The notes below the pieces were generated by a model. It was given only the letters and a program-made list of their open reading frames with translations, was not told where the DNA came from and did not search any database. DNA of 64,000 nt, from positions 1 through 64,000 of the forward strand of contig JAPSFT010000019.1 of the NCBI GenBank assembly GCA_035063765.1. Reading direction: 5' to 3'. Both the position numbers and the translations under genes were made by a program. Shown here one piece after another: positions 42,096 through 64,000 of this stretch; position 1 is the first letter of the stretch; each line of letters begins with the position of its first letter. Source of the DNA: Deltaproteobacteria bacterium (GTDB lineage Bacteria; Myxococcota_A; UBA9160; PR03).

Positions 42096-42149
42096 CGACG
42101 CTCCTCGCGAGCCATCACGGCGAAGGGCGGAGCGGAAGCCTGGGATCCG

Positions 42150-43346: not shown

Positions 43347-43407
43347 CTAAGGTTCGGCGCTCGCCGCGCCGCTGGTCCCCCCGGATCACGGCGCCGTTGG
43401 AGGTCGA

Positions 43408-45692: not shown

Positions 45693-45726
45693 CGGGCAGG
45701 GAGACGGGTGGGCCGGCGGAGTGCCG

Positions 45727-46863
45727 ATGCGGGTCCTGATGTTCTGCAGTCAGTTCCGGCCCGTGATCGGGGGGGCGGAGCGGCAGGCCGAGCTGCTGGC
45801 CCGGACGCTCATCGGACAGGGCTGCCACGTGGAGGTGCTGACGGTCCAGCAGGATCCGGCGCATCCCCTGCTCGAGGACGCAGAAGGGCTGCGCATCCAT
45901 CGCTTCCCCATGACCGACCTCACGAAGCGCTTCCCCGGCGTCGGAGGGCTCGGCGTCCCGAACCTCCTGATCGAGCGTGTCCAGCTACACCGGGCGGTGA
46001 GAAGGCTCATCCAGGATTTCGACGTGTTCCACGCGCACATCGCGTCGCCGCTCGTGGGGTTCGCACAGGAGGTGGCGCGCGCCGAGGGCCGGCCCACGAT
46101 CTGCAAGATCGCGTGCGGAGGCCGGGGCTTCGACTTCCTGGCCCTCCGGCGCGGGTCGCTGCTCGGGCAGCGAATCGAGCGGAACCTGGTGGAGAAGGTC
46201 GATCGCTGGATCGCGATCTCCCGCGAAGTCCACGAGGATCTGTCGAAGTCCGGGGTGCCGGATCACCGCGTGGTCACGATCCCGAACGGGATCGACGTTG
46301 CGGCCGCAGCGACGCCACGGGCCCGGGCACCCGCACGGCGCTTCCTCTGTCTCGGCCGCCTGGTGAAGTTCGATTTCGAGAGCCTCCTCGGCGCCTTCCA
46401 GGATCTCCTCGCGGAGGCGCCGGACGCGGAGCTGCGCATCGCAGGCGGCGGGGACGTCGAGGGCCTGCGTGAGCGCCTGGCCCGGCTTCCCTCGGGTGCA
46501 CGAAGCATCTCCGCGGTCGGCTTCTCCCCTACCGCGGAGGAGTTCGCCTGGGCCGACGCCCTGATCCACCCCTCGCGAGCCGAGGGCATGTCGAACGTGC
46601 TCCTGGAGGCGCTTGCCGCAGGCCTCCCGTGCGCGGCGAGCGACATCGAGCCGAACCGGGAGGTCCTCGGGGAGGCCGAGGCGGGCCTGCTGTTTCCGCT
46701 GGGAAACCGGGCCGCGCTGCACGAGGTGATGCGCGCGCTCGCGAGCGACGGAGCCCTGAGCCGGCGATTGGTCGCTGCGGGTCACGCCCGGGTCCGCGCC
46801 GAGTACGAGATCGGCGTCGTTGCCGGGCGCTACCGCTCCCTCTACCGGGAGCTGGTCGCCTGA
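45727..46863 (+). CDS. GT4 glycosyltransferase
   Basis: The 378-residue GT-B enzyme starts MRVLMFCSQFRPVIGGAERQ, with the glycine-rich acceptor loop. Later it has VVTIPNGIDV, FLCLGRLVKFDFE and the EX7E donor motif SRAEGMSNVLLEALAAGLP. The ATG at 45727 is preferred for its GGAG five bases upstream; a GTG at 45721 is also possible. The last 22 bases overlap the 3' end of the opposite-strand beta-helix gene. Confidence 0.92.
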   Translation: MRVLMFCSQFRPVIGGAERQAELLARTLIGQGCHVEVLTVQQDPAHPLLEDAEGLRIHRFPMTDLTKRFPGVGGLGVPNLLIERVQLHRAVRRLIQDFDVFHAHIASPLVGFAQEVARAEGRPTICKIACGGRGFDFLALRRGSLLGQRIERNLVEKVDRWIAISREVHEDLSKSGVPDHRVVTIPNGIDVAAAATPRARAPARRFLCLGRLVKFDFESLLGAFQDLLAEAPDAELRIAGGGDVEGLRERLARLPSGARSISAVGFSPTAEEFAWADALIHPSRAEGMSNVLLEALAAGLPCAASDIEPNREVLGEAEAGLLFPLGNRAALHEVMRALASDGALSRRLVAAGHARVRAEYEIGVVAGRYRSLYRELVA

Positions 46864-49202: not shown

Positions 49203-49339
49203 GTGCGCGACCGTGCGGCAAGCCGCGCGAGGCTGGGCCGTGCGTGCCGCTCCGCCGCGCCGCATCCTCGAGACCCCTCGCCGCTCTCCAGGGGGTCGAG
49301 TAGCCTTCGCGACCCGCAGCCCTCGCTGAGGAACCTCCC

Positions 49340-50506
49340 GTGCCCGGCCCGCTTCGCGTGCTCATGGTGAGCCCCCAGTTCCGGCCCATGGTCGGTGGCT
49401 ACGAGCGTGCCGCAGAGCGGCTGTCGCAGGCGCTCGTGGCGCGAGGGCACCGGGTGACGGTGGTGGCGGAACGGCGGGACCCGGGCTGGCCCGCGCGCGA
49501 GGGGTGCGACGGGCTCACGGTGCGGCGGCTCCGGGTGGCGTTGCGTCCCGGGCTGCACCTGCTGAGCGGGGCGATTGCGCTCGCGAGCTTCCTGCTCGTC
49601 CACGGGCGGCGCTTCGACGTCTATCACGTCCATCAGTATGGAGGGGCCGCTGCCGTCGCCGTCGTCTTCGGCCGCCTCTTCGGGCGGCCGGTGGTGCTGA
49701 AGCTCACGGGTACGGAGGAGAACAGCATCCTCGTCGCCCTGCGGCGGGGTCGGCTCCCTTCACTCCTCGAGGGTCTGCACCGCCGCATCGACGCCTTCCT
49801 GGCCCCGAGCGAGCGTGTCGCGAAGGAGATCGAGCGGTTCGGAATCCCGGCGGAGCGTGTCCACCGCATCCCCAACGGCATCGACGTCGAGCGGCTCCGG
49901 CCCCTCCCGCCACCGGCGCGGCAGGCGCTCCGCCGGAGGCTCGGCCTCGAGGGCGTGACGGCGGTCCTCTACGTGGGGCGTCTCAGCCCGGAGAAGAACC
50001 CGCTCGGCCTGCTCGATGCCTGGCGCCGCCTCGGGCCGCCCAAAGGCGCGAGGCTGATCTTCGTCGGCGACGGTCCCGTCCGCGAGGAGCTTCTCCGCTG
50101 CGCCGCGCCCTGCGGTGATTCCGTCTCGATCGTCGGGGCGGTTCCCGATCCGCTCGAGTGGTACCAGGCTGCGGACCTCTTCGTGCTGCCGTCGATCCGG
50201 GAGGGCCTCTCCAACAGCCTCCTCGAGGCGATGGCGTGTGCGCTGCCCGTGGTGTCGGCGCCGGTGTCGGGCAGCGAGGACATCTTCGCCGCCGCCGAGG
50301 TTGGCGTGCTGGCCGGCGGCCCCGACGCGGCGCCGCTTGCGGAGGGGCTCCGACTGCTCCTGTCGGAGCCCCACCGGCGCGCCCGTTGCGCAGCCGAAGC
50401 GCGGCGGCTCGCCGTGGACCGGTTCTCGCTCGACCGGGTGGCGCAAGACGTCGAGTCGCTCTACGGGATCCTGACCGCTCGAACGTCGCGGGAGACGACC
50501 CGGTGA
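49340..50506 (+). CDS. GT4 glycosyltransferase
   Basis: A 388-residue GT-B enzyme: LRVLMVSPQFRPMVGGYERA, a PSERVAKEIERFGIP linker, HRIPNGIDVERL, VLYVGRLSPEKNPLGLLDAW and EX7E motif SIREGLSNSLLEAMACALP. Probably adds a sugar to the repeat unit. GTG start; its stop overlaps the next ATG (TGATG). First of three coupled genes. Confidence 0.92.
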   Translation: MPGPLRVLMVSPQFRPMVGGYERAAERLSQALVARGHRVTVVAERRDPGWPAREGCDGLTVRRLRVALRPGLHLLSGAIALASFLLVHGRRFDVYHVHQYGGAAAVAVVFGRLFGRPVVLKLTGTEENSILVALRRGRLPSLLEGLHRRIDAFLAPSERVAKEIERFGIPAERVHRIPNGIDVERLRPLPPPARQALRRRLGLEGVTAVLYVGRLSPEKNPLGLLDAWRRLGPPKGARLIFVGDGPVREELLRCAAPCGDSVSIVGAVPDPLEWYQAADLFVLPSIREGLSNSLLEAMACALPVVSAPVSGSEDIFAAAEVGVLAGGPDAAPLAEGLRLLLSEPHRRARCAAEARRLAVDRFSLDRVAQDVESLYGILTARTSRETTR

Positions 50507-51561
50507 TGGGCAGCAGATGCCAGACTCTCGTTCTTCTCCTCGTATCGGTGTCGTCGTGTCTGGTACTGATCGGGTTCGCCGAGTTCGGCCTGCGCGTGGT
50601 GGCGCCGATCCATCTGGCCGGCATCCAGAGCGCGTACCGCTACGACGAGGATCTGGGCTATCGGCTCGGCCCGGGTCTCCATCTCTACCGCCTCACCGAC
50701 CACCTCGAAGAGGTGCGCACCAATCGGCTGGGCACCGTGAACTTCCAGGAGAGCTTCGACGGCTACCCGGAGGTCGCGTTCGCGCTCGGAGATTCGTTCA
50801 CCCAGGGTACGGGCCTTCCAGCCGACGCGTCGTATCCCTTCCAGCTCGATCTGCTCTGGAACCGAGACGAGCTCGGCTTCTACGCGAAAAAACTTGCGAT
50901 CGTCAACCTCGGACTGGCGGCGTTCGGGGGGCAGCAATCGCTGGTCTCGCTCGAGCGGTTCGCCAAGGAGCTGGGGACGCCCGACTACGTCCTCTACCTC
51001 GGATCCGACAACGACTGGGACGACGACGTGCTGTTCGAGTCGGGTTACCGGCATCGCCACATCGTGTACGGGAGTCCGCGTTGGGGCGCTTCGGTACGCC
51101 CGCTGCTGTGGCTCGGGGAGCTGGAGCTGGTGAAGCGAGGCAAGCTCGCAATCGCCGAGCTTCGCAGGCTCCGCCTCGTCGCCGAGGCGGAGAGCCGGCA
51201 GGGCGCCGGCCAGCCGGGGACGCCGATCTCGGTGGCCGAGCGCGAGTGGCCTGTGATCGAGGAGATCCACCAGCGCACGCAGGAATGGGGTTCGACGCTG
51301 ATCCTCTCGTGGGCGAACGCTCCGGGGCCTTCCTACTCGTGGCTGCGCGAACGGGCAGCGCAGGCCGGGATCGCGTTCGCCGATTGGGAGCCGCGGGCTG
51401 CGTCCGTACAGGCGGCGATCCCCGAGCTGCCGTTCGCGAATCCTCATTCGGGTGGTCACTGGCGGCCGTGGGCGAACGCCGAGATCGCCCAGGCGTACGC
51501 AGCGGCGTTGCGGCGCGCTGGGGCCGTCGGGGGGGCGGCCGAGGCTGCACTCCCGCACTGA
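50506..51561 (+). CDS. Membrane-anchored SGNH-hydrolase-like protein
   Basis: The 351-residue protein has an N-terminal span (about residues 7-33). An SGNH-type domain follows: Ser in ALGDSFTQGTG (block I), GSDNDWDDD and a late NPHSGGHW that could provide the catalytic His. AlgX/AlgJ-like and DltD-like members O-acetylate or edit exported glycans; that role is inferred. It lies between two glycosyltransferases in one run. Confidence 0.7.
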   Translation: MGSRCQTLVLLLVSVSSCLVLIGFAEFGLRVVAPIHLAGIQSAYRYDEDLGYRLGPGLHLYRLTDHLEEVRTNRLGTVNFQESFDGYPEVAFALGDSFTQGTGLPADASYPFQLDLLWNRDELGFYAKKLAIVNLGLAAFGGQQSLVSLERFAKELGTPDYVLYLGSDNDWDDDVLFESGYRHRHIVYGSPRWGASVRPLLWLGELELVKRGKLAIAELRRLRLVAEAESRQGAGQPGTPISVAEREWPVIEEIHQRTQEWGSTLILSWANAPGPSYSWLRERAAQAGIAFADWEPRAASVQAAIPELPFANPHSGGHWRPWANAEIAQAYAAALRRAGAVGGAAEAALPH

Positions 51562-51562
51562 G

Positions 51563-52699
51563 ATGAACGGCCGGCGGATCCTGATCGACGGCTCGATGGC
51601 GCGCAGCGGAGGCGGCGCCACCTATGTGCGCAATCTCGTGCCGCGCCTGGCCGCGCTGCGTCCCGAGGATCGCTTCCGCCTGTGGCTCCGCGAGGAGCAC
51701 CTGGCCGCGGCGCTCCCGCCGCTCGCGAACCTCGAGGTGGAGGTGCTCCCCGAGGTCGCCTGGACGGGCCGGATGCGGTTCCTCGTGCTGCACGCGGCGG
51801 AGCGTGCTCGCAGGTGGGGTGCGGACCTCTACTTCTCGACGGCCGAGTACGCGCCGCCCCGTCCCCCCTGTCCCGCGATCGCGAGCTTCCGGAACCCGAA
51901 CGTCTTCTCCCGCCTCGACCTCGGCTGGCCCCTCCGGCAGCGCGCGCGGCTGTTCGTCCTGCGCCGGCTGGCCAGCCACTCGGCGCGGGTCTGCGCACGC
52001 ATCCTGTTCGTGAGCGCCGACTCGGCGGGCTGGATCGGCGACGAGGTCGGGCTCCCGCCCGAGCGGCGTGCCGTCGTGCCGCACGGCATCGACCTGGAGG
52101 CCTGGTCGCGAGCGAGTGTCGCGCCGCAGCGGCTGGCGGGCGGCCGGCCGTACCTGCTCTCGGTGAGCTCGGTCTATCGCTACAAGAACTACGTGCGGTT
52201 GATCGAGGCCTGGTCGCAGGTCGCCCGCCGGCGGCCGGATGCCCCCGACCTCGTGATCATCGGCGACGAGCCCGACCGCGCGCATCGCCGGGACATGGAG
52301 GCAGCGCGCGCTGCGACCGGCGCTCTTGCGCAGCGCACCCACCTGCTCGGCGAGGTGCCCTACGCCGAGATCCGGGGCTGGTATGCCGGAGCGTGCGGCT
52401 TCGTGTTCCCGTCCTTCCTGGAGACCTTCGGCCATCCGCTGATCGAGGCGATGGCGATGGAGCTGCCGATCGTCGCCGCCGAGATCGGCGTGTTCCGCGA
52501 GATCGCGGCCGATTGCGTTCTCGGGGCGGACCCGCACGACACCGGCGCCCTCGCGGCGGCGATGGAATCGCTCCTGGCGGACCCCTCCTTGGCCCGCGAC
52601 CTGGCCGCCCGAGGACGGCGGCGCGCGGGCGGCTTCTCGTGGGATCGTTCGGCACGGCTGCACGCGGACCTGCTCAGCGATGTCCTGGCGGCGCCGTGA
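51563..52699 (+). CDS. GT4 glycosyltransferase
   Basis: The 378-residue GT-B enzyme has RILIDGSMARSGGGATYVRNL, VPHGIDLEAWSR, YLLSVSSVYRYKNYVRLIEA and EX7E motif SFLETFGHPLIEAMAMELP, the pattern of WbpY/mannosyl- or rhamnosyl-type GT4 enzymes. It follows the SGNH gene by one base and converges with the sulfotransferase. Confidence 0.92.
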   Translation: MNGRRILIDGSMARSGGGATYVRNLVPRLAALRPEDRFRLWLREEHLAAALPPLANLEVEVLPEVAWTGRMRFLVLHAAERARRWGADLYFSTAEYAPPRPPCPAIASFRNPNVFSRLDLGWPLRQRARLFVLRRLASHSARVCARILFVSADSAGWIGDEVGLPPERRAVVPHGIDLEAWSRASVAPQRLAGGRPYLLSVSSVYRYKNYVRLIEAWSQVARRRPDAPDLVIIGDEPDRAHRRDMEAARAATGALAQRTHLLGEVPYAEIRGWYAGACGFVFPSFLETFGHPLIEAMAMELPIVAAEIGVFREIAADCVLGADPHDTGALAAAMESLLADPSLARDLAARGRRRAGGFSWDRSARLHADLLSDVLAAP

Positions 52700-52776
52700 G
52701 GTGAGCCTCTCCGCCGAGGATCCGGGCTCGCAGCGCCCCGACCCCGGAGAAACTCGCATCACGGCATCCAAGCGTG

Positions 52777-53709
52777 TCAGTGCAGGTAGCCGAGGCGCCT
52801 CATCATCGTCGTCGAGATCTGGACGATCCGCCGGGTATCCGCTTCCGAGAGGCCGTCCTTCCATCTCACGTCGAGCTCGATCGTCCCGTCGAAGGTCTTC
52901 TTCATCTTGTTCCCGATGAGATGCCCCTTCTCCCCGTCGACGGGTGTCCGGACCACCTCCGCGTCAGGGAGGCCGAGGAACGAGAACACCCTGGCCATCG
53001 TCTCGCGCGGTGCCTGCGCGAGATCCTCGTAGCGGACCTGGAGAACTCCCCTCCGCCTGGCAGCTATGTGGCCGACGGCCGCTATCAACCGGTGTTGTCG
53101 AACCCAGCCCCTCGCGGCGAATTCCGGGGTGGCGCGTTTTCGCTGCAGCATCGAGTAGGCGAACGCTCGCGGATCCCGGGTCAGGTGAAGGATCGAGATC
53201 GGCCGGCCCGTCAGCCCGTGTACGACCAGCGGGATCGGCCAGCTCTTCTGGCCGTCCACGAATACCCGCGCGCCTGCCCTGCGCAGGGTCACACGGCGGA
53301 AGCATTCGTAGGCGTCGAGATAGGAGGAGAGCGCCGTCAGGCTCCCCACGAGGCTCCGGCGGAGCGGCGGGACGGCGGCGAGCGAGGCCAGCGCGAGGTT
53401 GGCGACGAGGTTCGACCGCTCACCAGCGGCCAGGCGGGGGAGCGGCGGCAGGAATCGTGACTCCGCGGCGAAGCGATCGGCGCGGGCCGCATCGAGGGCT
53501 TCCCGCCAGAAGGCGCACTCGCTGATGAGCTTCTTGCAGAGGCAGAGCTGGTCGAAGGACCGTGTGGGGATCGTGTCGCCGAGGGCGAGCACCTCGGGGT
53601 GGTTGTTCAGCAGGAGCGAGAGGAGCGTGGCTCCGTGGTACGAAGGGCAGAGGATGTAGACGAGATCCGGGTGAGTGGCGGGGGTCGTCATGTGGCATTC
53701 ACGGGACAT
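52777..53709 (-). CDS. Sulfotransferase
   Basis: The 310-residue protein has the PAPS 5'-phosphate loop CPSYHGATLLSLLLNNHP and the 3'-phosphate segment ILHLTRDPRAFAYSML, then VRYEDLAQAPRETMARVFSFL. This is the family of carbohydrate and small-molecule sulfotransferases. It would sulfate the polysaccharide or a lipid. An alternative start at 53691 (MTTPATHPD) is equally possible. It is downstream of the pectate-lyase-like gene on the same strand. Confidence 0.85.
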   Translation of the reverse strand: MSRECHMTTPATHPDLVYILCPSYHGATLLSLLLNNHPEVLALGDTIPTRSFDQLCLCKKLISECAFWREALDAARADRFAAESRFLPPLPRLAAGERSNLVANLALASLAAVPPLRRSLVGSLTALSSYLDAYECFRRVTLRRAGARVFVDGQKSWPIPLVVHGLTGRPISILHLTRDPRAFAYSMLQRKRATPEFAARGWVRQHRLIAAVGHIAARRRGVLQVRYEDLAQAPRETMARVFSFLGLPDAEVVRTPVDGEKGHLIGNKMKKTFDGTIELDVRWKDGLSEADTRRIVQISTTMMRRLGYLH

Positions 53710-53794
53710 CCGCGGCCGCCGGGCGGAGCGAGGCAGAGGAGCATCGGACGATTATTCCCCGATCGATTCGAGCCTGCCAAGTGCGGTGCCGGGC

Positions 53795-55264
53795 TCACGG
53801 CGGGCAGGGTCGGGTGAGGTCCGGAAGACGGGGAGGGGTGTGGGAGCGCTGGCCGGTGCCGGTCCGGACCTCCTCCACGATCCGCCGGTCGGCCGAGTCA
53901 CGGCACGGTCGCGTGGCGCCCACGTTGGCGAGGATGTTCGGGAGATCCGCGGCGGCCGTCGTGCTCGGGAAGCTGTGGGACTGGATGAGCCGCGCGTCGG
54001 CGCGGTGGTTCCCTTCGTATCCACCGCAGGGGGAGTTGATGGACTCCAAGGAGAAGAAGTCGCACTCGCGCGGGGCTCCCGGGCTGCGGCGGGGGCCACT
54101 GTTGCGATCGAGGAAGACGCGGATCGGACCGACGCTCGCCGGCCGCGTGGAGATCATGATCGGGACCTTGGGATCGGGCCAGCGCGGTCCGGGCTTCCAC
54201 AGGTTCCCGATCGCGTCGAGATGGATGGTCCAGTCCGGACTCTGGTTCCAGATCCGGGTGCCGTACGCGGCGTCGTAGACGACGTTCTGGATCAGCTCGT
54301 ACTCGGCGATGCCGGAGAGCCGTGCGCCCGGAGACTGGTGAGGACCCCTTCGCTGGCCCGTGGAGAGCTGTGGATTGCGGTTGTCGGACTTGGCGAACAC
54401 GTTGCGGAACCAGGTCACGTGGCTCACGTCGCCGTTGACGAGTGTCGCCATGTTGTGGCCCTGAGCCATCTCCGCGAAGAGCGAGTTCTGCACGGTGACC
54501 CTGCGGACGCGGCCGGTGCCGGCGTACGAGTACCCGTACATCGAGAGGCACTCGTCCGTCCCCCAGGTGCAGGAGATGTGATCGATCAGGATGTCCGAGC
54601 CGCCTCCGATCGCGAGGGCGTCGACCGCTTCCGAGGGATGGCTGCCGCGGAAGCGAAGGTGGCGGATCACCACGTTGTTGGCCTCGACGATCAGGGGGCT
54701 CCCCCAGATGGCGACCCCGCCGTTCGGGGCGTCGCTGCCGTCGATCGTGATGTTCGGGTGCCGGACCTTGAGCTGGTCGACGAGTTCGATGTTGCCGCTC
54801 ACCCGGAAGCGGACGATTCGATTGCCACCCGAGAGCGCCGCACGCAGCGAGCCGGGGATCGGCATCCCTCGGTCGCCGGAATCCCGGAGCGTGGTGACCG
54901 TTACGACCGGATGGCCGCGCCCTCCGGTAGCCGCGGCTCCGAAGCCGTAGGCGACGAACTCGGGCTCCGGCCCACCCGCTGGCGCCGCGGCAGGCGCGGC
55001 CGGAAGCTCAGGCGTTGCAGGAGCAGCTTCCGAGGCAGTCGCGGTAGGGATGCGCTCGGACGGCGGGCGCTGGCCCTGGGCTCTTCCGCTGGTCGTCGGC
55101 TGTCGCCACGCGTTGGTGGTTCCGACCTCCCGGCTCGCCTTCCCGCCCTTGCGGACGTCCGCGGCCCCGGCCGAGCCGGAGGCGGCGATCGCGAGCGCGG
55201 CCGCCAGGAGGAATGCAACTCCCGCGAACCTCGGCTCCTTGCGCCTGCGTTGCCGCTTGGTCAA
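53795..55264 (-). CDS. Secreted pectate-lyase-like beta-helix protein
   Basis: The 489-residue protein has a signal peptide (residues 10-35, FAGVAFLLAAALAIAASGSA), a Pro/Ala-rich linker (about 50-110), and a right-handed beta-helix with PL1-type landmarks: SLRAALSGGNRIVRFRVSG, NNVVIRHLRFR, ILIDHISCTWGTDE and VTWFRNVFAKSDNRNPQL. It probably cleaves acidic glycans outside the cell. TTG at 55264 is chosen for its GAGAGGAGG ribosome site and clean signal peptide. A GTG at 55339 would place a 12-bp hairpin inside the coding region. Confidence 0.82.
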   Translation of the reverse strand: MTKRQRRRKEPRFAGVAFLLAAALAIAASGSAGAADVRKGGKASREVGTTNAWRQPTTSGRAQGQRPPSERIPTATASEAAPATPELPAAPAAAPAGGPEPEFVAYGFGAAATGGRGHPVVTVTTLRDSGDRGMPIPGSLRAALSGGNRIVRFRVSGNIELVDQLKVRHPNITIDGSDAPNGGVAIWGSPLIVEANNVVIRHLRFRGSHPSEAVDALAIGGGSDILIDHISCTWGTDECLSMYGYSYAGTGRVRRVTVQNSLFAEMAQGHNMATLVNGDVSHVTWFRNVFAKSDNRNPQLSTGQRRGPHQSPGARLSGIAEYELIQNVVYDAAYGTRIWNQSPDWTIHLDAIGNLWKPGPRWPDPKVPIMISTRPASVGPIRVFLDRNSGPRRSPGAPRECDFFSLESINSPCGGYEGNHRADARLIQSHSFPSTTAAADLPNILANVGATRPCRDSADRRIVEEVRTGTGQRSHTPPRLPDLTRPCPP

Positions 55265-55289
55265 GCCCCCTCCTCTCCCGACGACTTCA

Positions 55290-55317
55290 CCACCCGCCCC
55301 GTCGGCGGGGCGGGTGG
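55290..55317 (-). promoter_or_regulatory. 12-bp perfect hairpin in the pectate-lyase leader
   Basis: CCACCCGCCCCG (55290-55301) pairs with CGGGGCGGGTGG (55306-55317) around a four-base loop. It lies about 26 bases before the TTG start, just outside the ribosome site. It could block initiation or act as an attenuator. There is no T-run to make it a simple terminator. Confidence 0.5.
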
Positions 55318-55404
55318 AAAGATTGAGGATCGTGGTCACCGGACGATGAACGATGGCTCGCTACGGTAGCCCCAACCTTCCCCGGCGGGGGTTCTGCCGA
55401 CCTG

Positions 55405-55410
55405 TATAAT
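55405..55410 (+). promoter_or_regulatory. Consensus -10 box for the kinase genes
   Basis: TATAAT stands out in GC-rich surroundings, 121 bases before the kinase-fusion ATG. No -35 match is found at 16-18 bases, so it may need an activator. A CCCCG-G-CGGGG dyad lies just upstream (55380-55390). Confidence 0.45.
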
Positions 55411-55530
55411 GGCCCGCCGTCTTCCCGCCGTTTCCTGGCGCCAGGAGCCCCCGATTCCATCCATGGCACGCGAGGAGAGCGAGACGCCCGACGGGATCCT
55501 GCATGGCCTCGGCGCCCCCGCGAGCGACCG

Positions 55531-56985
55531 ATGCACGCCATGATCATGGCTTCGCCCGTCGAGCGACTGGTCTCCTCGCTCTCGCGCGGAGACATCCCCT
55601 GGTGCCACTGGAAGAGCAACCGCCATCTGGATGCTGCGCTCCGCGGTCGCACCGACCTGGATCTGCTCTTTCCCGAGGACCGTCGCAAGGACGTGGAGAG
55701 CGCGCTGGCCGAAGCGGGCGCGCGCCGGTTCCAGCCGGTCTCCTTCCGCGACTATCCTGGGATCGAGGACTACCTCGCAGTCGATCCGAGCGGGCCGATC
55801 CTCGTGCACTTCCACGTGCACTTCCGGCTGCTGGTCGGTGAGAGGAACATCAAGGCCCATTCCCTGCCGTGGGAGGCCGAGGTGCTCGCGTCGCGCGTGC
55901 CCTCGGCGCCGGGCTCGCCGATCTTCGTCTCCTCTCCGGAGATGGAGCTGCTGCTGCTGATCGTCCGCATCTGCGTCAAGCAGCCTCGCGGAGCCCTGCG
56001 GCTGGACCCGGACGGGGGCGCTGCACTCGAGCTCGGCTGGCTGCGGGAACGCGTCGACGGGCCCGCGTTCTCGGCGCTCGCAGGACGCCTCCTCGGGGCC
56101 GACGCCGCAGCGGCGCTCCGGGCCGTGCTCGACGAGGGGGATCGCCGGATCGAGGGGGCCAGGCCGCAGGTCATCACCGCCTTGGCCCCGCATCGCCGCC
56201 TGTCGGCTGCCGCCGAAGCCCGCCTCCGGCGTGAACGTGGCTGGGCGCTCCGCCTGACGCGCCGAGCGCGGCGCGCGGGCCTTCCGGTGGCGGCGCGACG
56301 GATCCGGCCGAGACGTGGCTTTGCGGTGGCGCTTCTCGGCTGCGACGGCTCGGGGAAGTCCTCGCTCACGAAGGCCGCCGCTGACTTCTTTGCCCAGAAA
56401 CTCGACGTCGAGCGGATCTACTTCGGCCACGGCGCCGGCTCGCGATCCGCGCTGCTGCGACTCGCGCTGGCCGCACGCCGCCGCTTCGGCCGCTCCGCCT
56501 CCCTGCGGCGCCTCCTCGACGTCCCGGTGGCCGCCGCGATCGACCTCGACAAGGTGATCGGCTTCGTCCGCCTGTCGCTGGCGAGGCGGGCGGGGATGCT
56601 CGTGGTCTGCGACCGGTTCCCGCAGGCCGCGGTGGCCGGGACCTGCGATGGGCCGCGACTGCCCGTTCTAGCTGCCGGGAACGCCCTGGCCGGAACGCTG
56701 CTGCGGCCCTTCGTCCCGATCGAGCGGGCGATCTACCGGATCGGTGAACGGTGTGCTCCCGATCTCGTGCTCAAGATCCGCGTCTCGCCCGCGGTCGCCG
56801 CCGCGCGCAAGAGCGACGGCACCAGCCTCGAGACCATCACCCGCAAGGTGGGTGTGATCGACGAGCTGTCGTTCGGGGAGGGGGTGGTGGTCACCGAGAT
56901 CCAGAACGAGGGGATCCCGTTCGAGGAGGCAGCGCGCAGGGTCGTGGCGGCGATCTGGAACACGATGGGCGATGCGGCGGATTGA
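55531..56985 (+). CDS. Nucleotidyltransferase-like / thymidylate-kinase-like fusion protein
   Basis: A 484-residue two-part protein. Residues 1-230 resemble minimal nucleotidyltransferase folds (CHWKSNRHLDAALRGRTDLD with the D-x-D pair, then LVHFHVHFRLLVGERNIK). Residues 262-484 resemble dTMP kinases: P-loop LLGCDGSGKSSL (270-278), VVCDRFPQAA and a lid-like VAAARKSDG. Similar fused proteins occur in exopolysaccharide loci; their substrate is not known. Internal ATGs at 55540 and 55546 are possible starts. It overlaps the next kinase by 14 bases. Confidence 0.75.
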   Translation: MHAMIMASPVERLVSSLSRGDIPWCHWKSNRHLDAALRGRTDLDLLFPEDRRKDVESALAEAGARRFQPVSFRDYPGIEDYLAVDPSGPILVHFHVHFRLLVGERNIKAHSLPWEAEVLASRVPSAPGSPIFVSSPEMELLLLIVRICVKQPRGALRLDPDGGAALELGWLRERVDGPAFSALAGRLLGADAAAALRAVLDEGDRRIEGARPQVITALAPHRRLSAAAEARLRRERGWALRLTRRARRAGLPVAARRIRPRRGFAVALLGCDGSGKSSLTKAAADFFAQKLDVERIYFGHGAGSRSALLRLALAARRRFGRSASLRRLLDVPVAAAIDLDKVIGFVRLSLARRAGMLVVCDRFPQAAVAGTCDGPRLPVLAAGNALAGTLLRPFVPIERAIYRIGERCAPDLVLKIRVSPAVAAARKSDGTSLETITRKVGVIDELSFGEGVVVTEIQNEGIPFEEAARRVVAAIWNTMGDAAD

Positions 56986-57727
56986 GTTCACCGGCCTCCC
57001 GGGCAGCGGCAAGAGCAGCATCGTGAAGGAGGCGGAGCGGACCCTCTGCGTCGCCGGCTCGCCGTGCTTCGATCGGGACCGCGTCGCCGCCCTGTACCCC
57101 CCTGCTTCGAGCTCGACCTTCACTGCCGTGCAGTGGCTCCTTCCGCCCGCATGGCGCGAGCGCGTCGCTCGGCGTCTGTTCTGGGCACGGGTGGTCTCCG
57201 AGGCGCGCGGACGTGTGCCGGGCACGTTTCCAGCACTCCTTTCCGCGATCCAACGAGGAGCCGAGAGCGGCGGGGAGCCCGCCGAGTTCGTGGAGCGGTT
57301 CGTCGGCTACGCCACCGACGTCCTCGCGTGGCACCTGATCGCATCGGAACGACTCGCAGCGCGCGACGTCTTCCTGTGCGACGAAGGATTCGTGCAGCGG
57401 CTCGTCAGCCTCGTCTCACCCGGCGATGCGAAGTCGTGGCTGCCGCTGATCCCGCCCGTCGATCTCCTGTTCGTCGTCCGCGCCCGCCGCGCCACCTGCA
57501 TGGAGCGCATGCAACACCGCCCGAGACGGCTCCCCAATCGATTCGTCGGCCGATCGCCGGCGGAGATCGACACCGCGCTCTTCCGGATGGAAGGCACCGT
57601 CTCGGAGCTGGAGGTTGCACTGCGGGAAGCCGGGACGTCGGTCGTGCGGGTGGATACGGATGAGCTGGGTCTCGGAGCAGCGACGGCGCTGGTGGTCGCC
57701 GCGACCACCGAGTGGATGCGGACCTGA
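56972..57727 (+). CDS. Small P-loop kinase/NTPase
   Basis: The 251-residue protein starts MRRIEFTGLPGSGKSSIVKE, a Walker A typical of small-molecule kinases. A DEGFVQR segment and a basic lid (RRATCMERMQHRPRR) follow. It does not match APS kinase signatures, although a sulfotransferase is near. Overlap with the fused kinase suggests that they act together on one intermediate. Confidence 0.7.
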   Translation: MRRIEFTGLPGSGKSSIVKEAERTLCVAGSPCFDRDRVAALYPPASSSTFTAVQWLLPPAWRERVARRLFWARVVSEARGRVPGTFPALLSAIQRGAESGGEPAEFVERFVGYATDVLAWHLIASERLAARDVFLCDEGFVQRLVSLVSPGDAKSWLPLIPPVDLLFVVRARRATCMERMQHRPRRLPNRFVGRSPAEIDTALFRMEGTVSELEVALREAGTSVVRVDTDELGLGAATALVVAATTEWMRT

Positions 57728-57736
57728 GCGGGGCCC

Positions 57737-59722
57737 TCAGGGAAGGTCAGCGGCACTCGTTAGCGGCGAAGCGAGTCCCGCCCGCGTGATGGCCTCCAGG
57801 AAGGCCGGCTCGAGGAAGGGCCGCAGATAGGCCGCACCGCGCACGTTGAGATGCCCTCTGTCTCGATACAGCGGCAGTCCGGCGGTTTCGTAGCGGCAGG
57901 TGGCCGCGTCGCAGAGCCAGGCGCTCGGGTCGGTGAAGACGAGCGGCAGCCTCTCGGGAAGGGCTGCGAGGGCCTGCGCGAAGGTCTGGCGCCGCTTTTC
58001 GAAGCGCACGGTCGGGATCGGCGCCGGCTGGCCATCGCCGGCGCGGCGTGCCATGGCCATGCGCAGCGGCAGCTCCGACGGCGCACCAGGCGTCGGACCG
58101 ATCAGCCAGGCAACCCGATTCTCCGCCTCGAGGAAGCGGAGCGTCCTGCGCAGGGCATCCGGGAAGACGACCGGGTTGCCCTTCCTTCCCTCCGCGTCCT
58201 CGATCCGATACTTGCCGCCTTCCCAGGAGTAGCTCGGCCAGGAGGCGACCATCACCACGAGCCGGAGGCGGGCGTCGTCGAGCAGGAGCTGGCGGACCTG
58301 GTCGTTGTGTCCGGCACAGAGCGGGTTCGACGGGTTGCGGACGTCGAGGAGCGGCGCGCACGCGGATTGTCCGGCGAAGAGGCCGCGGAGGCCTTGCTCG
58401 CGCAGCAAGGCGTCGAAAGCGGGGAGCCAGGCCAGCGCATGACTGTCTCCCCAGATCAGGACGGAGGGAGGACCTGCCTCGTTGCCCGCGCCCACGACGC
58501 ACGACTCGCCGAGCACCGGGTCGGCGAGCCGGCCCATGCAAGCGAGGAACGGGATCTCGGGTGTGCGCTCCCGATCGAGTGCGACGATCTCCGGCCCGAA
58601 GCGGTCCCTCCATCCGCCGCCGAAGGCCAGGACGAGGGCGATCCCGGCCGTCGCGGCGGTGGCGATCGCGGCGTTCCGGAAGAGCGGCCGCGGCTCGCGC
58701 AAGAGCCGGCGTTTCCGGAAGGGCGTCTCCACGAAGCGGAGCGAGAGCGCCGACAACCCGACCGCGAGCGCGAGGATCGCCCACCGCCAGGCGCCGAGTG
58801 GCTGGAGCCCGTTCAGGTACTTCGCGTAGACGATGAGGGGCCAGTGCCAGAGATACAGCGAGTACGAGATCAGCCCGACGTAGACCATCGGCCGCCAGGA
58901 CAGCGCCCTGCCGACCAGCGTGTCGCCGGAGGTGCCCGCGTGGAGCAGGGCGGCAGAGCCCAGCACCGGAAGCGCCGCGATCCAACCGGGAAACTCCGGC
59001 CCGGGCTCGATCCACAGGATCGCGTACGCGAGCAGCCCCAAACCCGCCACCGAAAGCAGCTCCCGCAGCCAGCGCTGGCGCAGGATCGGAACGAGCCCGA
59101 GCGCGAGCACGGCACCGGCCATCAGCTCCCAGGCACGGAAGGGAGCCAGGAAGAAGACCGCCGAGGGGCGGCGTGACTGGGCGAAGATCGCGAGCGCGTA
59201 GGACACGAGGCCGACGGCGACCACGATCGCTCCCAGCCTCCGCCGCGCATAGCGATGGACGAGCAGCAGCAGGATCGGGAGGCCGATGTAGAACTGCTCC
59301 TCCACGGCGAGAGACCAGGTGTGGAGCAACGGATTCAGCTCCGCGTTGCCGTCGAAGTAGCCGCTGTGACGCCACAGGTCGATGTTCGAGCCGTAGAAGA
59401 CCGTCGCCGCCGTGGTGCGGCCGAGGGTGACGAGGTCGCTCGGGAGGAGCAGGAAGAGCCCCGCGAGCAGCGTTGCCGCGAGGACGAGGAAGAGCGCCGG
59501 GAAGAGCCGGCGGATCCGCCGCTGGTAGAAGTCCGAGTACCCGAAGCGGCCTTCCCCGACCTCGCGCTGGATGATCCCCGTGATCAGGAAGCCGGAGATC
59601 ACGAAGAAGATGTCCACGCCCACGAAGCCGCCGCGCAGCGGACCCAGGCCGAGGTGGTAGAGCACGACAGCGAGGACCGCGATCGCCCTCAGTCCGTCGA
59701 TGTCGGCGCGGTAGGAGATCAT
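57737..59722 (-). CDS. OafA/YrhL-type acyltransferase with SGNH domain
   Basis: The 661-residue protein starts YRADIDGLRAIAVLAVVLYH, the acyltransferase-3 signature, with about ten spans to residue 370. A periplasmic SGNH domain follows (LIWGDSHALAWLP near 425 and DRGHLNVRG near 630 for the Ser/Asp-His pair). Members O-acetylate surface glycans. ATGA overlap with the polymerase-like gene. Confidence 0.93.
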   Translation of the reverse strand: MISYRADIDGLRAIAVLAVVLYHLGLGPLRGGFVGVDIFFVISGFLITGIIQREVGEGRFGYSDFYQRRIRRLFPALFLVLAATLLAGLFLLLPSDLVTLGRTTAATVFYGSNIDLWRHSGYFDGNAELNPLLHTWSLAVEEQFYIGLPILLLLVHRYARRRLGAIVVAVGLVSYALAIFAQSRRPSAVFFLAPFRAWELMAGAVLALGLVPILRQRWLRELLSVAGLGLLAYAILWIEPGPEFPGWIAALPVLGSAALLHAGTSGDTLVGRALSWRPMVYVGLISYSLYLWHWPLIVYAKYLNGLQPLGAWRWAILALAVGLSALSLRFVETPFRKRRLLREPRPLFRNAAIATAATAGIALVLAFGGGWRDRFGPEIVALDRERTPEIPFLACMGRLADPVLGESCVVGAGNEAGPPSVLIWGDSHALAWLPAFDALLREQGLRGLFAGQSACAPLLDVRNPSNPLCAGHNDQVRQLLLDDARLRLVVMVASWPSYSWEGGKYRIEDAEGRKGNPVVFPDALRRTLRFLEAENRVAWLIGPTPGAPSELPLRMAMARRAGDGQPAPIPTVRFEKRRQTFAQALAALPERLPLVFTDPSAWLCDAATCRYETAGLPLYRDRGHLNVRGAAYLRPFLEPAFLEAITRAGLASPLTSAADLP

Positions 59723-61005
59723 CTCATCGGGATGGGAACGGCGAGTGCAGGTGCTGAGCCCGTCCGACTCCGGGTCGAAGCCCTGGAATCGAGCGGCAGG
59801 ATCAGGGCCCCTGTGAGGACGGCCGCGAAGGCGACGGAGTAGAAGGTGGTGCCGGCAACGTAGTGCGTGAAGATGCTTGCGTAGACCAGGAGAAGGGCGA
59901 GCAGGATCGCGTTCGCTCCCCGCTGCAGCCCAGCCGCGGCACTCCGAAGGAAGCCAGCGAGAAGCAGCACGATGTAGAAGGCCAGCCCGGGGAGCCCGTA
60001 ATCGATCGCGATGTAGAGATAGGTGTTGTGGGGAAGGCGTTCCATTCCGTCGACGTAGCCGACGCCGCGCCCCAGAGGCTCGTCCGCCAGCATCGCCAGA
60101 CCCCGCTCGGCGAGATCCTGGCGGAGCTCGGACGAGCCGTCCGATACGTCACCCGCCAGGATCGAATGAAGGCGCATCTCTGCCGCATCGCTCAACACCA
60201 CCCGCTGTGCGAGCCAGGCCACCGCCGCGATGCCGGTGATCACCAGGAAGGCGATGACGATCAGGCGCTGCGGGCCTCGCAGGCCGCCCTCCGCACGGGC
60301 CGGAAGGAAGGCGTGGAGAGCCCAGAGGGCGCCGGCGAAGAGGATTCCGCTCCGGCTGAAGGTGGTGAATACGGCCGCAGTCGCGAGCGAGACGAGCAGG
60401 AGTGATCGTGTGGTCTGACGCCGCAGGTCCACCGCACCGAGAACGCAGATCAGGATCGCCATGCTCGCGGCGTTGGGGTTCCCGTAGAGGCCCGCGGAGC
60501 GGCCCTCGGCAGTGCTGAACAGGTTGGGAACCAGCAGCTCGACGAAGCAGACCGGGATGGCCCAGGCCAGCACCAGGAGGCTTCCCGTGCGAAGGATTCG
60601 CCGCGCGTCGGGCATGCCGAGGATCACGGCCGATCCGGCTACGAGGGAGAAGTAGACCGTGCGCTGCTTGAGACTCTGGGCGGCTCCCATGCTGCCGGTA
60701 CGGCCGAAGGCATAGAGGAAGACGGGGATGATCACGGTGAGCATCCACATCCAGAACTGCACGTTCGTGATCAGACGGACCATCTGGGGCAGGCAGAAGA
60801 GCAGGAAGAAGGGAAGGAAGATGGCAACGAAGGGGTAGTAGAGGTTGACGCCACTGAAGTATTGGAGCACACCGGAGAGCACGAGCGAGAGCCAGACGAC
60901 GCCTCCGGCGAAGACGATCGGCGAGGAGCGCGTGACCTCCGTGTCTCCGGTGGAGTGGCGGGCGTGCTGCGCGAACTCGAAGGTCTCGGCGCTTGTCTCA
61001 GTCAA
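59719..61005 (-). CDS. O-antigen polymerase/ligase-like membrane protein (Wzy/WaaL family)
   Basis: About 428 residues with ten or more spans and the Wzy_C/O-antigen ligase pattern: a long periplasmic loop, GLYGNPNAASMAILICVL and GYVDGMERLPHNTYLYIAID. It would polymerise or attach the repeat units exported by the flippase. A TTG at 61005 (TTGACTGA, overlapping the upstream stop) is the tentative start; the first residues are not conserved. Confidence 0.82.
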   Translation of the reverse strand: MTETSAETFEFAQHARHSTGDTEVTRSSPIVFAGGVVWLSLVLSGVLQYFSGVNLYYPFVAIFLPFFLLFCLPQMVRLITNVQFWMWMLTVIIPVFLYAFGRTGSMGAAQSLKQRTVYFSLVAGSAVILGMPDARRILRTGSLLVLAWAIPVCFVELLVPNLFSTAEGRSAGLYGNPNAASMAILICVLGAVDLRRQTTRSLLLVSLATAAVFTTFSRSGILFAGALWALHAFLPARAEGGLRGPQRLIVIAFLVITGIAAVAWLAQRVVLSDAAEMRLHSILAGDVSDGSSELRQDLAERGLAMLADEPLGRGVGYVDGMERLPHNTYLYIAIDYGLPGLAFYIVLLLAGFLRSAAAGLQRGANAILLALLLVYASIFTHYVAGTTFYSVAFAAVLTGALILPLDSRASTRSRTGSAPALAVPIPMR

Positions 61006-63136
61006 GGGCCACCTCCTGCCCGCTGCGCGCCGACTCGAGGAACGCAAAGGTGGTCCGCGAGACCGCCGCGATCTCCTCGAAGGCGAACGGTGCCGGCCGC
61101 CCCTCGCGCGCGGCCTGGAGCACCTCGCGGAGCGCCGTGGCCTGTCCCTTGTCCTGGTTGAGCGTGCGGAAGGGCCGCCGGCGGCCGGCGAATCGGGTCG
61201 ATCGGAAGTTCTCGCAGGCGACGGTCCGCCCGTCGGCGGAGGCCTCGAAGCGCTCCTTCGGGAGCGCGCTGCTGGCGCTCGCCAGGTACTGGATCTGTGC
61301 GACCGATCCGTCGGCGAAGGTGACCTGCGCGGCGACGGAGTCGTCGCGCTCGGGATCGGCGCCGAGCGCTCGGGCGAAGACGCGTGCGGGGCGCGAGCCG
61401 GCCAGGAACGAGCACAGATCGACGAAGTGGCAGACCTCGCCCACGATCCGCCCGCCGCCCTGCTTGGGGTCGGTGATCCAGGTCCCCTCCGGCGTCGGCC
61501 CCGCCGCCACCACGTAGTGGATGGCGAGCGGCCCCTGGCGCTGCGCGAAGGCCTTGCGCATCTCGCGTGCGTGCGCGGAGAAGCGGCGGTTGTAGCCGAC
61601 CGTCAGGAAGCCGCCGGTCTCGCGGACCGCGCGCTCGAGCTCCGCCAGCTCCTCCGCGGCGAGGGCGGGCGGCTTCTCGAGCCAGACGGCCTTGCCGGCG
61701 CGCAGGGCGCGCGCCGCCAGGCTGGCGTGGCTGTCGTGACGGGTCGCGATGAAGACGATCTGGACGGCCGGGTCGCCGAGGGCTTCCTCGGGGTCGGTGC
61801 CGCAGGCGGGGAACCCGAACTTCTCGGCGGTGGCGCGCGCCGAGGGGCCCGTCGCGGCGATCAGCCACTGCGGGCGCGCCTCGGGGATCCCGGCGAGCGC
61901 CGGGAGCAGCACGCCCTTCGCGTAGTTGCCGGCGCCCAGGAACGCCACGCCGAGCGCGGACGGAGCCGAGGCCGGCGCCGCGGGCGCGAGGCGGAGGCCC
62001 TGCGCCACGGCCGGCTCCTCCGCGTAGCGGAACACGACGGCCAGCGCTGCACGCCGGCCCTGGGCGAGCTCCGCATACACGCCGGGAGCGTCGTCGAAGG
62101 GGACCTGCTCGGTCGCGAGTCGATCGGGGCGCACGGCACCGGCCGAGACGAGATCGAGGAACGCGCCGAGGTTGCGGTTCTCGGTCCAGCGCACGTAGGG
62201 GAGCGGGTAGTCGAGGCCGAGCTCCTCGTAGCGCCGGTCGTAGCGGCCGGGCCCGTAGGAGGTGCTCATCCGGAGCTCCAGCTCCTTCTCGTAGAAGGTC
62301 CGGCGGTCGAGCTCCATCGGCATGGCGCCCACCACCACCACCTTGCCCTTGTGCCGGCACAGGTCGGCGGCGAGCTGGATCGGTGCGGAGGTCTCGGCCG
62401 CCGCGGCCACCAGCGCGAGGTCGACGCCGTGGCCGCCGGTGGCCTGGTCGCGCCAGGCGTCGGAGACCTCGTCGGGACGCATCGCCCAGGTGGCGCCGCA
62501 GGCGAGCGCCTGCTCGACGCGCTGCGGGGAGAGGTCGAGCCCGAGCACGCGGCAGCCGTTGGCGCGCAGGAGCTGCACGGCGAGCTGGCCGATGAGTCCC
62601 AGGCCGACCACGGCCGCCACCTCGCCGAGGGTCGGCTGCCCCACGCGGATGCCCTGGAGCGCGATCGCGCCGAGCGTCGCGAAGGCGGCCTGCTCGAGCG
62701 CGACCCCGTCCGGCACGCGGACGGCGAGGTTCTCGGGCACCACGATCAGCTCCGCGTGGTTCGCGTAGCCGGCGCCGGCGCAGGCCACCCGGTCGCCGGG
62801 TGCGAAGCCGCCGACGCCCGGGCCGGCCGCGAGGACGACCCCTGCGCTCGAGTAGCCGAGCGGCTGCGGCGCCTCGAGCCGGGTCATCACGGCGCGATAG
62901 GTGGGCAGCGGCCCCTCCTGCTGGAGCTTGCGCACCACCTGCTTCACGAGGTCCGGGCGGCTGCGCGCCTTGGCGAGCAGCGACTTGCGCGCGAAGTCGA
63001 GCGCCAGCTTCTCGGTGCCGGGCGACACCACGGAGAAGTGGTTGCGGACCAGGATCTGGCCCTCGCGGACGGCCGGGGCCGGCACCTCGACGAGCTCGAG
63101 CTCACCGGTCCGGGCGCTCTGGAGGATCTGCTTCAA
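60998..63136 (-). CDS. Bi-domain oxidoreductase (MDR dehydrogenase plus Gfo/Idh/MocA)
   Basis: The 712-residue protein joins an MDR-type dehydrogenase (residues 1-365; NHFSVVSPGTEK, VVGLGLIGQLAVQLLRANG) to a Gfo/Idh/MocA domain (from about 387; VAFLGAGNYAKGVLLP, IATRHDSHASLAARAL, WLEKPPALAAEEL). This fusion is a regular member of exopolysaccharide loci near heparinase-like genes and probably oxidises a sugar intermediate. TTG start at 63136, overlapping the DUF362 stop as TTGA; LKQILQSARTGELELVEVP is the usual family start. Confidence 0.92.
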   Translation of the reverse strand: MKQILQSARTGELELVEVPAPAVREGQILVRNHFSVVSPGTEKLALDFARKSLLAKARSRPDLVKQVVRKLQQEGPLPTYRAVMTRLEAPQPLGYSSAGVVLAAGPGVGGFAPGDRVACAGAGYANHAELIVVPENLAVRVPDGVALEQAAFATLGAIALQGIRVGQPTLGEVAAVVGLGLIGQLAVQLLRANGCRVLGLDLSPQRVEQALACGATWAMRPDEVSDAWRDQATGGHGVDLALVAAAAETSAPIQLAADLCRHKGKVVVVGAMPMELDRRTFYEKELELRMSTSYGPGRYDRRYEELGLDYPLPYVRWTENRNLGAFLDLVSAGAVRPDRLATEQVPFDDAPGVYAELAQGRRAALAVVFRYAEEPAVAQGLRLAPAAPASAPSALGVAFLGAGNYAKGVLLPALAGIPEARPQWLIAATGPSARATAEKFGFPACGTDPEEALGDPAVQIVFIATRHDSHASLAARALRAGKAVWLEKPPALAAEELAELERAVRETGGFLTVGYNRRFSAHAREMRKAFAQRQGPLAIHYVVAAGPTPEGTWITDPKQGGGRIVGEVCHFVDLCSFLAGSRPARVFARALGADPERDDSVAAQVTFADGSVAQIQYLASASSALPKERFEASADGRTVACENFRSTRFAGRRRPFRTLNQDKGQATALREVLQAAREGRPAPFAFEEIAAVSRTTFAFLESARSGQEVALD

Positions 63137-64000
63137 GGCGCGCTCCGCTCCACGTGCCCGCTCCACCCCGGGTGCGGCACGAAGCTCGTCTCGGAGCGCA
63201 GGTCGTCGAGCCTGAGCCCGCGGGGCTCCGAGCTATCGGGGGTGATCTCGAAGACCTGGACCTCGCCGGGATCGCGCACGGCCGTGATCCGCGGTCCCGG
63301 ATCCTGGATCGCCTCCCAGATCTTGGGCAGCTTGCGCTCGTCGAAGCCCATCAGGCGGACGGCGACCAGGTCCGCCGCCACGGGGTCCGTGGCGGCGATG
63401 ACGGCGCCGAGCGGCACGTCCTGGGGGGCGAGAGGCCCACCGCCCTGGCCGGCGACGATCCCGTCGATGACGGTGAGCACCGTGCGGACGGGGGCGGGCG
63501 CGCCCAGGTGGAGGCCCTGCGCGTCGCTGTAGTAGAGGCAGCGGTTGAGGTCGCAGCACATGCGCCAGGTGGTGCGGTTACCGTACCAGTTGCCGCTGCG
63601 CACGAAGTCGTCGCCGCGCGTGGCGCTCTCGAGCCGCCGGGCGGCGCGGAACCAGGGCAGCGCCTGCCCGCGCTGGAGCAGGGGCCGCGCGAGCTCGATG
63701 GCGCGGCTGCGCGCGCGGTCGATCCAGCGTCCGCCCGGGTACTCGTCGCCGCCCTCGCCGGGGGCGCCCAGCGAATGGTGGGGCAGCCAGTTCTTGTCGC
63801 CGTTGATGCCGACCAGGTTCTTCAGCGCCAGGGTGACGCCCGTCTTCTTGTGCGTCTTGAGCTTCGGCAGGTTCACGATCAGGTCCGAGGAGAGCACCGT
63901 CTCGGAGAGGAGATAGGCGTTGCGGCCGCCCCGGTGGTGGTCGACCGTGACGCCCGGATCGTAGTCCGCGCCGCGGAAGCGGATGGGATCGAGGCCCGAG
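63133..64000 (-). CDS. DUF362 family protein, cut by the window edge
   Basis: At least 288 residues; the frame is open to position 64000. DUF362 core: LIVNLPKLKTHKKTGVTLAL followed by KNLVGINGDKNWLPHHS, and later VIDGIVAGQGGGPLAP and AATDPVAADLVAVRLMGFDE. Family members are linked to iron-sulfur proteins; here the visible part lacks a ferredoxin Cys cluster. First visible gene of the run through the oxidoreductase, polymerase and acyltransferase, all with four- to eight-base overlaps. The N-terminus is missing. Confidence 0.85.
   Translation of the reverse strand, partial: SGLDPIRFRGADYDPGVTVDHHRGGRNAYLLSETVLSSDLIVNLPKLKTHKKTGVTLALKNLVGINGDKNWLPHHSLGAPGEGGDEYPGGRWIDRARSRAIELARPLLQRGQALPWFRAARRLESATRGDDFVRSGNWYGNRTTWRMCCDLNRCLYYSDAQGLHLGAPAPVRTVLTVIDGIVAGQGGGPLAPQDVPLGAVIAATDPVAADLVAVRLMGFDERKLPKIWEAIQDPGPRITAVRDPGEVQVFEITPDSSEPRGLRLDDLRSETSFVPHPGWSGHVERSAP

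Follow-up and report, generated by a model that had tools for sequence, protein, structure and literature searches.

What do two overlapping kinase-like genes contribute to a locus that otherwise looks like a surface-glycan locus? The question arises from a stretch of 64,000 nucleotides of a Deltaproteobacteria bacterium (contig JAPSFT010000019.1, positions 1 to 64,000, forward strand), which we call the window. It carries a gene for a fusion of a nucleotidyltransferase (NTase)-like domain with a kinase domain, here named NKF, and directly behind it a gene for a second P-loop kinase, K2. We propose, with a probability of about 0.4, that NKF and K2 are one conserved enzyme module that adds phosphate to a glycan or lipid-linked intermediate in the cytoplasm, ahead of export. 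Across phyla, the fusion of an NTP_transf_5-like domain to a thymidylate-kinase-fold domain was kept together with K2. The two genes mostly overlap or lie close to each other, and genes for glycosyltransferases, flippases, Wzy, and sulfotransferases were commonly found nearby. The folds are known, but the combination of NTase, kinase, and K2 and its role appear to be new. Exopolysaccharide and capsule loci are read through their recognised enzymes, and a widely conserved pair without a name in the family models and papers found is a gap in that reading. The pair may also flag surface glycans that carry phosphate and escape current predictions.

The first-pass annotation of the window, made from its letters only, had described NKF as an N-terminal NTase-like domain joined to a domain resembling thymidine monophosphate (dTMP) kinase, and had noted an overlap of 14 bases with a second small kinase. 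The overlap was confirmed on the sequence, where the stop codon of NKF (TGA) is at 56983-56985 and the start codon of K2 (ATG) is at 56972. A home-made gene caller based on codon usage retained both NKF (score 124.7) and K2 (score 42.9), and both look coding. The glycan setting was borne out as well. Genes identified by Pfam around the pair included sugar-precursor genes (a nucleoside diphosphate (NDP)-sugar NTase of PF00483, NAD-dependent epimerases, and a phosphomannose isomerase), assembly genes (a flippase, GT4 glycosyltransferases, and a Wzy-type protein), and genes for a heparinase-like protein, a sulfotransferase, an AT3-SGNH acyltransferase, a bi-domain oxidoreductase, and a DUF362 protein.

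To see how often the pair recurs, one genome per species was scanned with an NKF profile, giving the best 80 of 86 confirmed loci from at least 587 candidates. The pair was counted in the 31 NTase-bearing loci besides the window, a set that also takes in same-phylum and plasmid loci and from which the duplicates L018, L025, and L026 were dropped. K2 was present in 28 of the 31 (E < 1e-5), and in 23 the gap between the two profile matches was shorter than 100 nt. These pairs span nine bacterial phyla plus one archaeal metagenome-assembled genome (MAG). Some loci are close relatives (L043 and L045, L023 and L024), and thus the independent cases are fewer than 31. The recurrence of the pair across phyla exceeds chance. 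In four loci (L019, L040, L043, L045) K2 was convergent with NKF, and therefore the link between the two genes survives a changed orientation. In L022 and L075 NKF was split into two frames, and K2 followed the second piece. In the archaeal MAG, which belongs to Halobacteriales (L035), a divergent K2 was about 1 kb from NKF; this pair possibly reflects transfer between domains, or mis-binning. A beta-helix gene lies near NKF and K2 on the archaeal contig, paralleling the pectate-lyase-like gene of the window.

Within the phylum of the window genome, a single-sequence search found NKF homologues in 11 of 282 genomes, its own included. Among 188 sampled genomes of the phylum, the K2 profile matched 27 at E <= 1e-8. 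K2 was near full length in ten of them (E <= 1.3e-21), and in two more (G067, G077) K2 was found in halves, the second at a contig start and the first where the NKF-bearing contig ends. These 12 genomes all have NKF, although that of G081 and G116 was detected by the NKF profile only. Counting two genomes with a divergent K2-like protein, which are weighed below, NKF was present in 12 of the 14 genomes with K2 or a K2-like protein. The remaining 13 of the 27 had short matches, which were not counted as K2, and had no NKF. The eleventh NKF genome of the single-sequence search (G205) was absent from the K2 matches in the 188 genomes, and its K2 sits in L019.

In NKF, residues 32-147 matched Pfam NTP_transf_5 (PF14907) weakly, at 25.5 bits against a gathering cut-off of 31.2, and 4 of 21 NKF homologues matched the family at E <= 0.001. 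When a profile of residues 1-250 from the 21 homologues was compared in hhalign with ten PF14907 proteins, all taken from the order of the window genome, the probability was 94.6% over 142 columns. As controls, the K2 profile gave 1.6% and eight column shuffles gave at most 0.5%. D42 and D44, the D-L-D pair on which the first-pass annotation had relied, were invariant in all 21 homologues. At the position of H93, each of the ten PF14907 rows had D or E, as judged by eye, and 20 of the 21 NKF rows had His. We take the D or E of the PF14907 [DE]LH strand to be the third catalytic acid of this fold. Thus the NTase domain of NKF appears to have two of the three expected carboxylates, and since the third is replaced by His93, nucleotidyl transfer by NKF is doubtful. 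The earlier claim of an NTase active site therefore held for the DxD pair and not for the third acid. NKF resembles NTP_transf_5 in profile, DxD pair, and a DLH-like strand, but it has KS in place of KG and is fused to a kinase. The AlphaFold model of NKF, made with 20 homologues, had a mean predicted local distance difference test score (pLDDT) of 91.8 and a predicted template modelling score (pTM) of 0.90. Whole-protein models were used in the fold searches, and the matches of NKF were dominated by its kinase domain, so that the NTase fold was barely probed structurally; a search of the PDB with the NTase-domain profile gave nothing at E <= 5. Elsewhere in the window genome there are two further PF14907 matches, one well above the cut-off (140.3 bits) and one below it (26.6 bits), at C3:4967-5680 and C5:233675-234127, both outside the glycan locus.

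The kinase domain of NKF has the fold of thymidylate kinases. Among the 50 Foldseek matches listed for the NKF model, 49 were thymidylate kinases (best E 7.9e-7) and one was the nucleoside kinase AbmG. VIA-align also placed dTMP kinases on top (2plr, Z 17.1, 186 residues aligned, root-mean-square deviation (rmsd) 3.1), with dCK also present, and 7 of the 21 homologues matched PF02223 at E <= 0.001. The likeness to Tmk extends to the P-loop GxDGxGK. However, NKF scored 10.9 bits against TIGR00041 (Tmk), for which the cut-off is 83.25, while a true Tmk on another contig of the window genome scored 125.5. The motif DR[YFH]xxSxxAYQ, which binds TMP, and FEG before the P-loop are what we take to be the motifs of Tmk. 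In the form [DE]R[YFHS]xxSxxA[YF]Q, the TMP-site motif was found in none of 29 NKF rows, none of 119 rows of related single-domain kinases, and in the one Tmk of the genome. All 29 NKF rows and all 119 single-domain rows carried the signature DR[FYWL]P; counts of the P-loop among these rows are circular, since the rows were selected by that motif. The P-loop, DRFP, and Arg residues of the kinases are conserved. Judged by motif and family cut-off, NKF is not a dTMP kinase, because DR[FY]P stands in place of the TMP-site motif.

K2 is predicted from its model to be a P-loop kinase of a dTMP/adenylate-kinase-like fold. The model had a pLDDT of 84.3 and a pTM of 0.80 and was weak around residues 40-110. 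Foldseek placed adenylate kinases on top (best E 3.4e-6), with thymidylate and shikimate kinases close after. In VIA-align the top match was Staphylococcus aureus TMK (Z 17.2, 177 aligned, rmsd 3.0), and adenylate kinases came behind it, the best at Z 15.8. TIGR00041 had no match to K2 at E <= 1, and the adenosine 5'-phosphosulfate (APS) kinase family PF01583 reached 14.1 bits (gathering cut-off 21.1) over residues 4-32 only. By these family cut-offs and motifs, the first-pass annotation was probably right that neither protein fits a dTMP or APS kinase role. E5, G8, G11, G13, K14, R179, and R183 of K2 (window numbering) were identical in 25 of 25 rows, and D137 in 20. The initial K2 profile was built from most of the loci that it then found, and the fair test is a leave-one-out search against the window proteins and 7799 open frames. 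All 25 rows were recovered (E 4.7e-50 to 3.3e-14; window K2 1.5e-28), and therefore K2 forms a single family, distinct from P-loop genes at large. The K2 rows of L021, L023, and L024 carried out-of-family flanks, and later profiles trimmed or omitted them. No Pfam family was above gathering for NKF or K2 of the window, and no NCBIfam model was over its cut-off for the NKF and K2 of the window, L017, L028, and L030. Single-sequence searches of the PDB (E <= 1) with both proteins gave chance-level matches only, and a plasmid search with K2 found nothing. A literature search, which covered titles and abstract openings with most subscription papers outside its scope, found nothing about the NKF-K2 pair or the yghR/S/T proteins discussed below.

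The neighbours of the pair point to glycan assembly. We checked 96 of 233 called neighbours with Pfam; the 233 are from 28 loci and the 96 from 27. They included 24 GT4 glycosyltransferases, six sulfotransferases, four Wzy_C proteins, and four matches to each of two flippase models. As a control, 29 window genes outside the glycan locus were scanned, and none of these neighbour families was among the 25 shown of 61 families, where families with a single member may be hidden. The first-pass annotation had proposed looking for the pair in other exopolysaccharide loci, and such loci were found. On plasmid pTAD1 of Chelatococcus daeguensis the order is deacetylase, glycosyltransferase, O-antigen ligase, tyrosine kinase, NKF, K2, and flippase, with NKF annotated as 'hypothetical protein' and K2 as 'AAA family ATPase'. 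Gene fusions were also found. L045 encodes GT2, NTase, and kinase domains in a single frame (PF00535, 3.5e-25), and L018/L040 and L019 have the same look by eye. In L023 K2 is fused to an FkbM methyltransferase (PF05050, 3.5e-26), and L024 is alike by alignment. L054 encodes a fusion of a kinase domain with K2 (481 aa), and this kinase domain groups with NKF in a tree.

On the proposed reading, the kinases of NKF and K2 would work as a heteromeric complex, because dTMP kinases are dimers and one homologue is a kinase-K2 fusion. With ATP as the phosphate donor, they would phosphorylate a hydroxyl group on a building block in the cytoplasm or on a lipid-linked oligosaccharide, and this step would precede flipping or polymerisation. 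The substrate of the module would be a sugar or a lipid-linked building block. The NTase-like domain might move a nucleotidyl group onto that hydroxyl or phosphate, or it might hold the acceptor, a role considered because the third carboxylate is His. The module would yield a glycan that bears phosphate or a phosphodiester, or else an activated intermediate for such a glycan. The first-pass annotation had suggested that the pair phosphorylates and activates a sugar or lipid carrier, which fits the genomic evidence and the sphingolipid-adjacent relatives described next, for a substrate that we infer; overall, its interpretation is partly supported.

The other 59 loci encode the kinase domain, and no NTase domain was detected in them; 41 of them have at least two kinase frames. 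The Escherichia coli members of this group are yghS, yghT, and a third kinase gene annotated as hypothetical, which is presumably yghR. RefSeq labels yghS and yghT 'dTMP kinase', and yghT-like DNA was present in 4685 of 5426 complete E. coli genomes. In a record labelled DH5alpha (L109), the neighbours of these kinases are a serine palmitoyltransferase gene (spt), an acyl carrier protein gene, genes annotated lptF and lptG, a gene for a 274-aa protein, and a Polysacc_synt flippase gene, which we take to be yghQ. L109 is likely a sphingolipid locus. At E <= 1e-20, the 59 single-domain loci had homologues of spt in 13, of the 274-aa protein in 37, and of the flippase in 37, and 13 of the 59 had none of the three. 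A quick tree with 85 rows grouped 54 of the 55 single-domain rows (SH-like approximate likelihood ratio test (SH-aLRT) support 80), the exception being L054; many forks were open. The 274-aa protein was also tried as a detached NTase domain and rejected (hhalign 0.4% with the NTase profile of NKF and 0.1% with that of PF14907). YghR/S/T share the DR[FYWL]P kinase family with NKF, but they have neither the NTase domain nor K2.

The sister branch beside sphingolipid genes is a lead to the type of acceptor by analogy, not proof. A broader proposal, which we hold to be somewhat unlikely, is that NKF and K2 found a new class of thymidylate-kinase-fold heteromeric kinases for membrane-bound acceptors. 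The acceptors of NKF and K2 would be lipid-linked glycans during exopolysaccharide assembly across bacteria and perhaps archaea, and those of YghR/S/T would be sphingolipid head groups, E. coli included; both branches would act just before a flippase of the MOP family. Since the same kinase family is in an apparent sphingolipid locus of E. coli, an easy experimental host, the question of the kinase substrate is directly testable.

Other explanations of the pair have to be weighed. The target might be a soluble precursor, with the kinases phosphorylating a free sugar, alditol, or small acid and the NTase making an NDP-linked donor, on the model of a kinase and a cytidylyltransferase for head groups linked to cytidine diphosphate. 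We consider this unlikely. A kinase and an NTase-like domain in one chain would suit it, but the NTase domain is without the third acid, the window locus already has a classical PF00483 NTase, the need for a second kinase is left unexplained, and we know of no NTP_transf_5-type domain that is an NDP-sugar pyrophosphorylase. A favourable precedent is the CPG2 pathway of Caulobacter, which joins a ceramide kinase and the phosphoglycerate cytidylyltransferase CpgD in the available text of PMC10331486, PMC11324152, and PMC12275187; there too a kinase and a nucleotidyltransferase build a phosphorylated envelope molecule. According to the available text of PMC10331486, the kinase CpgB has an LCB5/DAG-kinase domain and not a P-loop kinase domain, and therefore a sphingolipid locus with a P-loop kinase would represent a different solution. 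Alternatively, the pair could stop the chain in the manner of WbdD, the kinase-methyltransferase terminator of O9a, by phosphorylating the non-reducing end. In the available text of PMC3482155, WbdD phosphorylates and then methylates the terminal mannose, and Klebsiella O7 performs the same step with a different kinase (PMC11231755, available text). WbdD likewise is a kinase in glycan assembly; the K2-FkbM methyltransferase fusion would follow the same logic, and the GT2-NKF fusions are also in line with it. However, the methyltransferase fusion was seen only in two genomes, which are related (by Pfam in L023 and by alignment in L024). WbdD, as described in the same part of PMC3482155, has a eukaryotic protein-kinase fold, which differs from that of NKF and K2, and pairs with an ABC transporter, whereas the window locus and L017 have a flippase and a Wzy/O-antigen-ligase protein. 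We regard chain termination as improbable.

We give a regulatory role the same low standing. In that case the NTase and kinases would modify proteins, for example the polymerase or a chain-length regulator, and so switch polymer production. NKF of Chelatococcus lies directly after a tyrosine-protein kinase gene, and minimal NTases of other families modify proteins. However, the NKF kinase domain and K2 have folds of the nucleoside-monophosphate-kinase type and not of protein kinases, and in the four loci scanned singly the gene directly before NKF was of the tyrosine-kinase type in one (L017), the others being FGE-sulfatase proteins (L042, L093) and a flippase (L030). It is very improbable that NKF is a dTMP kinase paralogue feeding dTTP to dTDP-sugars, as its fold and the RefSeq labels of yghS and yghT might suggest, given that the TMP-site motif is confined, among the rows compared, to the genome's own Tmk and that NKF is far below the TIGR00041 cut-off. 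That the pair serves defence, or is a toxin-antitoxin system carried by a glycan island, is just as hard to credit. The distribution is accessory and patchy, and K2 of Nostoc (L028) matched PADLOC VakA across 34 residues at its P-loop (E 2.8e-7); but PADLOC gave no family at E <= 0.01 for NKF and K2 of the window, the neighbours are of glycan type, and viral contigs contained no relative of the window NKF in a search sensitive to close relatives only.

Several observations weigh against the proposal that NKF and K2 phosphorylate a glycan or lipid-linked intermediate. The substrate and product are ones that we infer. The NTase domain is without the third acid of its PF14907 relatives, H93 being paired in the hhalign alignment with the D of the D-L-H strand of the relative L110, and the window protein is under the Pfam cut-off and is a long branch (1.52) in the tree. 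K2 was missing from the scanned DNA of 3 of the 31 NKF loci (L038, L101, L104), although the genome of L101 (G062) carries K2 on a different contig. L021 and L022 show K2 only as a contig-end fragment, and in L030 and L032 it is 3.2 kb and 5.2 kb from NKF with weaker matches (4e-19 and 7e-10). In G072 and G145, which belong to one genus, a K2-like protein is full length but divergent (6.2e-18 and 3e-16), and no NKF was found genome-wide at E <= 1e-8. K2-like kinases can therefore occur without NKF, and a link of K2 to NKF with no exception was rejected. A genome of the same genus as the window genome (G060) has neither NKF nor K2, and thus the pair is accessory. The neighbour counts are pooled over loci and not given per locus, and not every locus is proven to be of glycan type; in L051 a RecG gene adjoins K2. 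Homologues of spt, the 274-aa protein, and the flippase of L109 were each found in 0 of the 31 NKF loci at E <= 1e-20, and the analogy on the lipid side is therefore indirect.

Table 1. Coordinates of the NKF-K2 pair, its domains and surroundings in the window, and of related features in other loci
Feature	Position	Strand	Details
NKF (NTase-kinase fusion)	55531..56985	+	484 aa; from the list of open reading frames
N-terminal NTP_transf_5-like domain of NKF	55531..56280	+	about residues 1-250; WKSN, D42-L-D44, H93-x-H95-x-H97
C-terminal thymidylate-kinase-fold domain of NKF	56302..56982	+	about residues 258-484; P-loop G270-C-D-G-S-G-K276, D361-R-F-P364, D373-G-P, R426
K2 (second P-loop kinase)	56972..57727	+	251 aa; G8-x-P-G-S-G-K14, D137-E-G139, R179, R183
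Coding overlap of NKF and K2	56972..56985	+	14 bases; read from the sequence
Surface-glycan locus around the pair	36018..63897	.	Pfam and gene calls; outer limits are our judgement
Sulfotransferase gene of the window	52777-53709		in the surface-glycan locus
Pectate-lyase-like gene of the window	53795-55339
E. coli yghS/yghT/third-kinase locus	L109:1-9669		NZ_CP026085.1, record labelled DH5alpha
274-aa protein of the E. coli locus	L109:5081-5905	-	no Pfam match; homologues in 37/59 single-domain loci
Divergent K2-like proteins without NKF	L158:4938-5753, L159:8029-8838	-	full length; two genomes of one genus

Some further genes beside the pair were observed. Sulfotransferases are recurrent neighbours of NKF, including that of the window (Table 1), and the FGE-sulfatase proteins (formylglycine type) immediately before NKF are at L042:7800-9932 and L093:8298-9935. 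In L039 (12243-14480), the sequence directly after K2 encodes an APH phosphotransferase domain joined to a GT4 glycosyltransferase, which adds a third phosphotransferase to the block.

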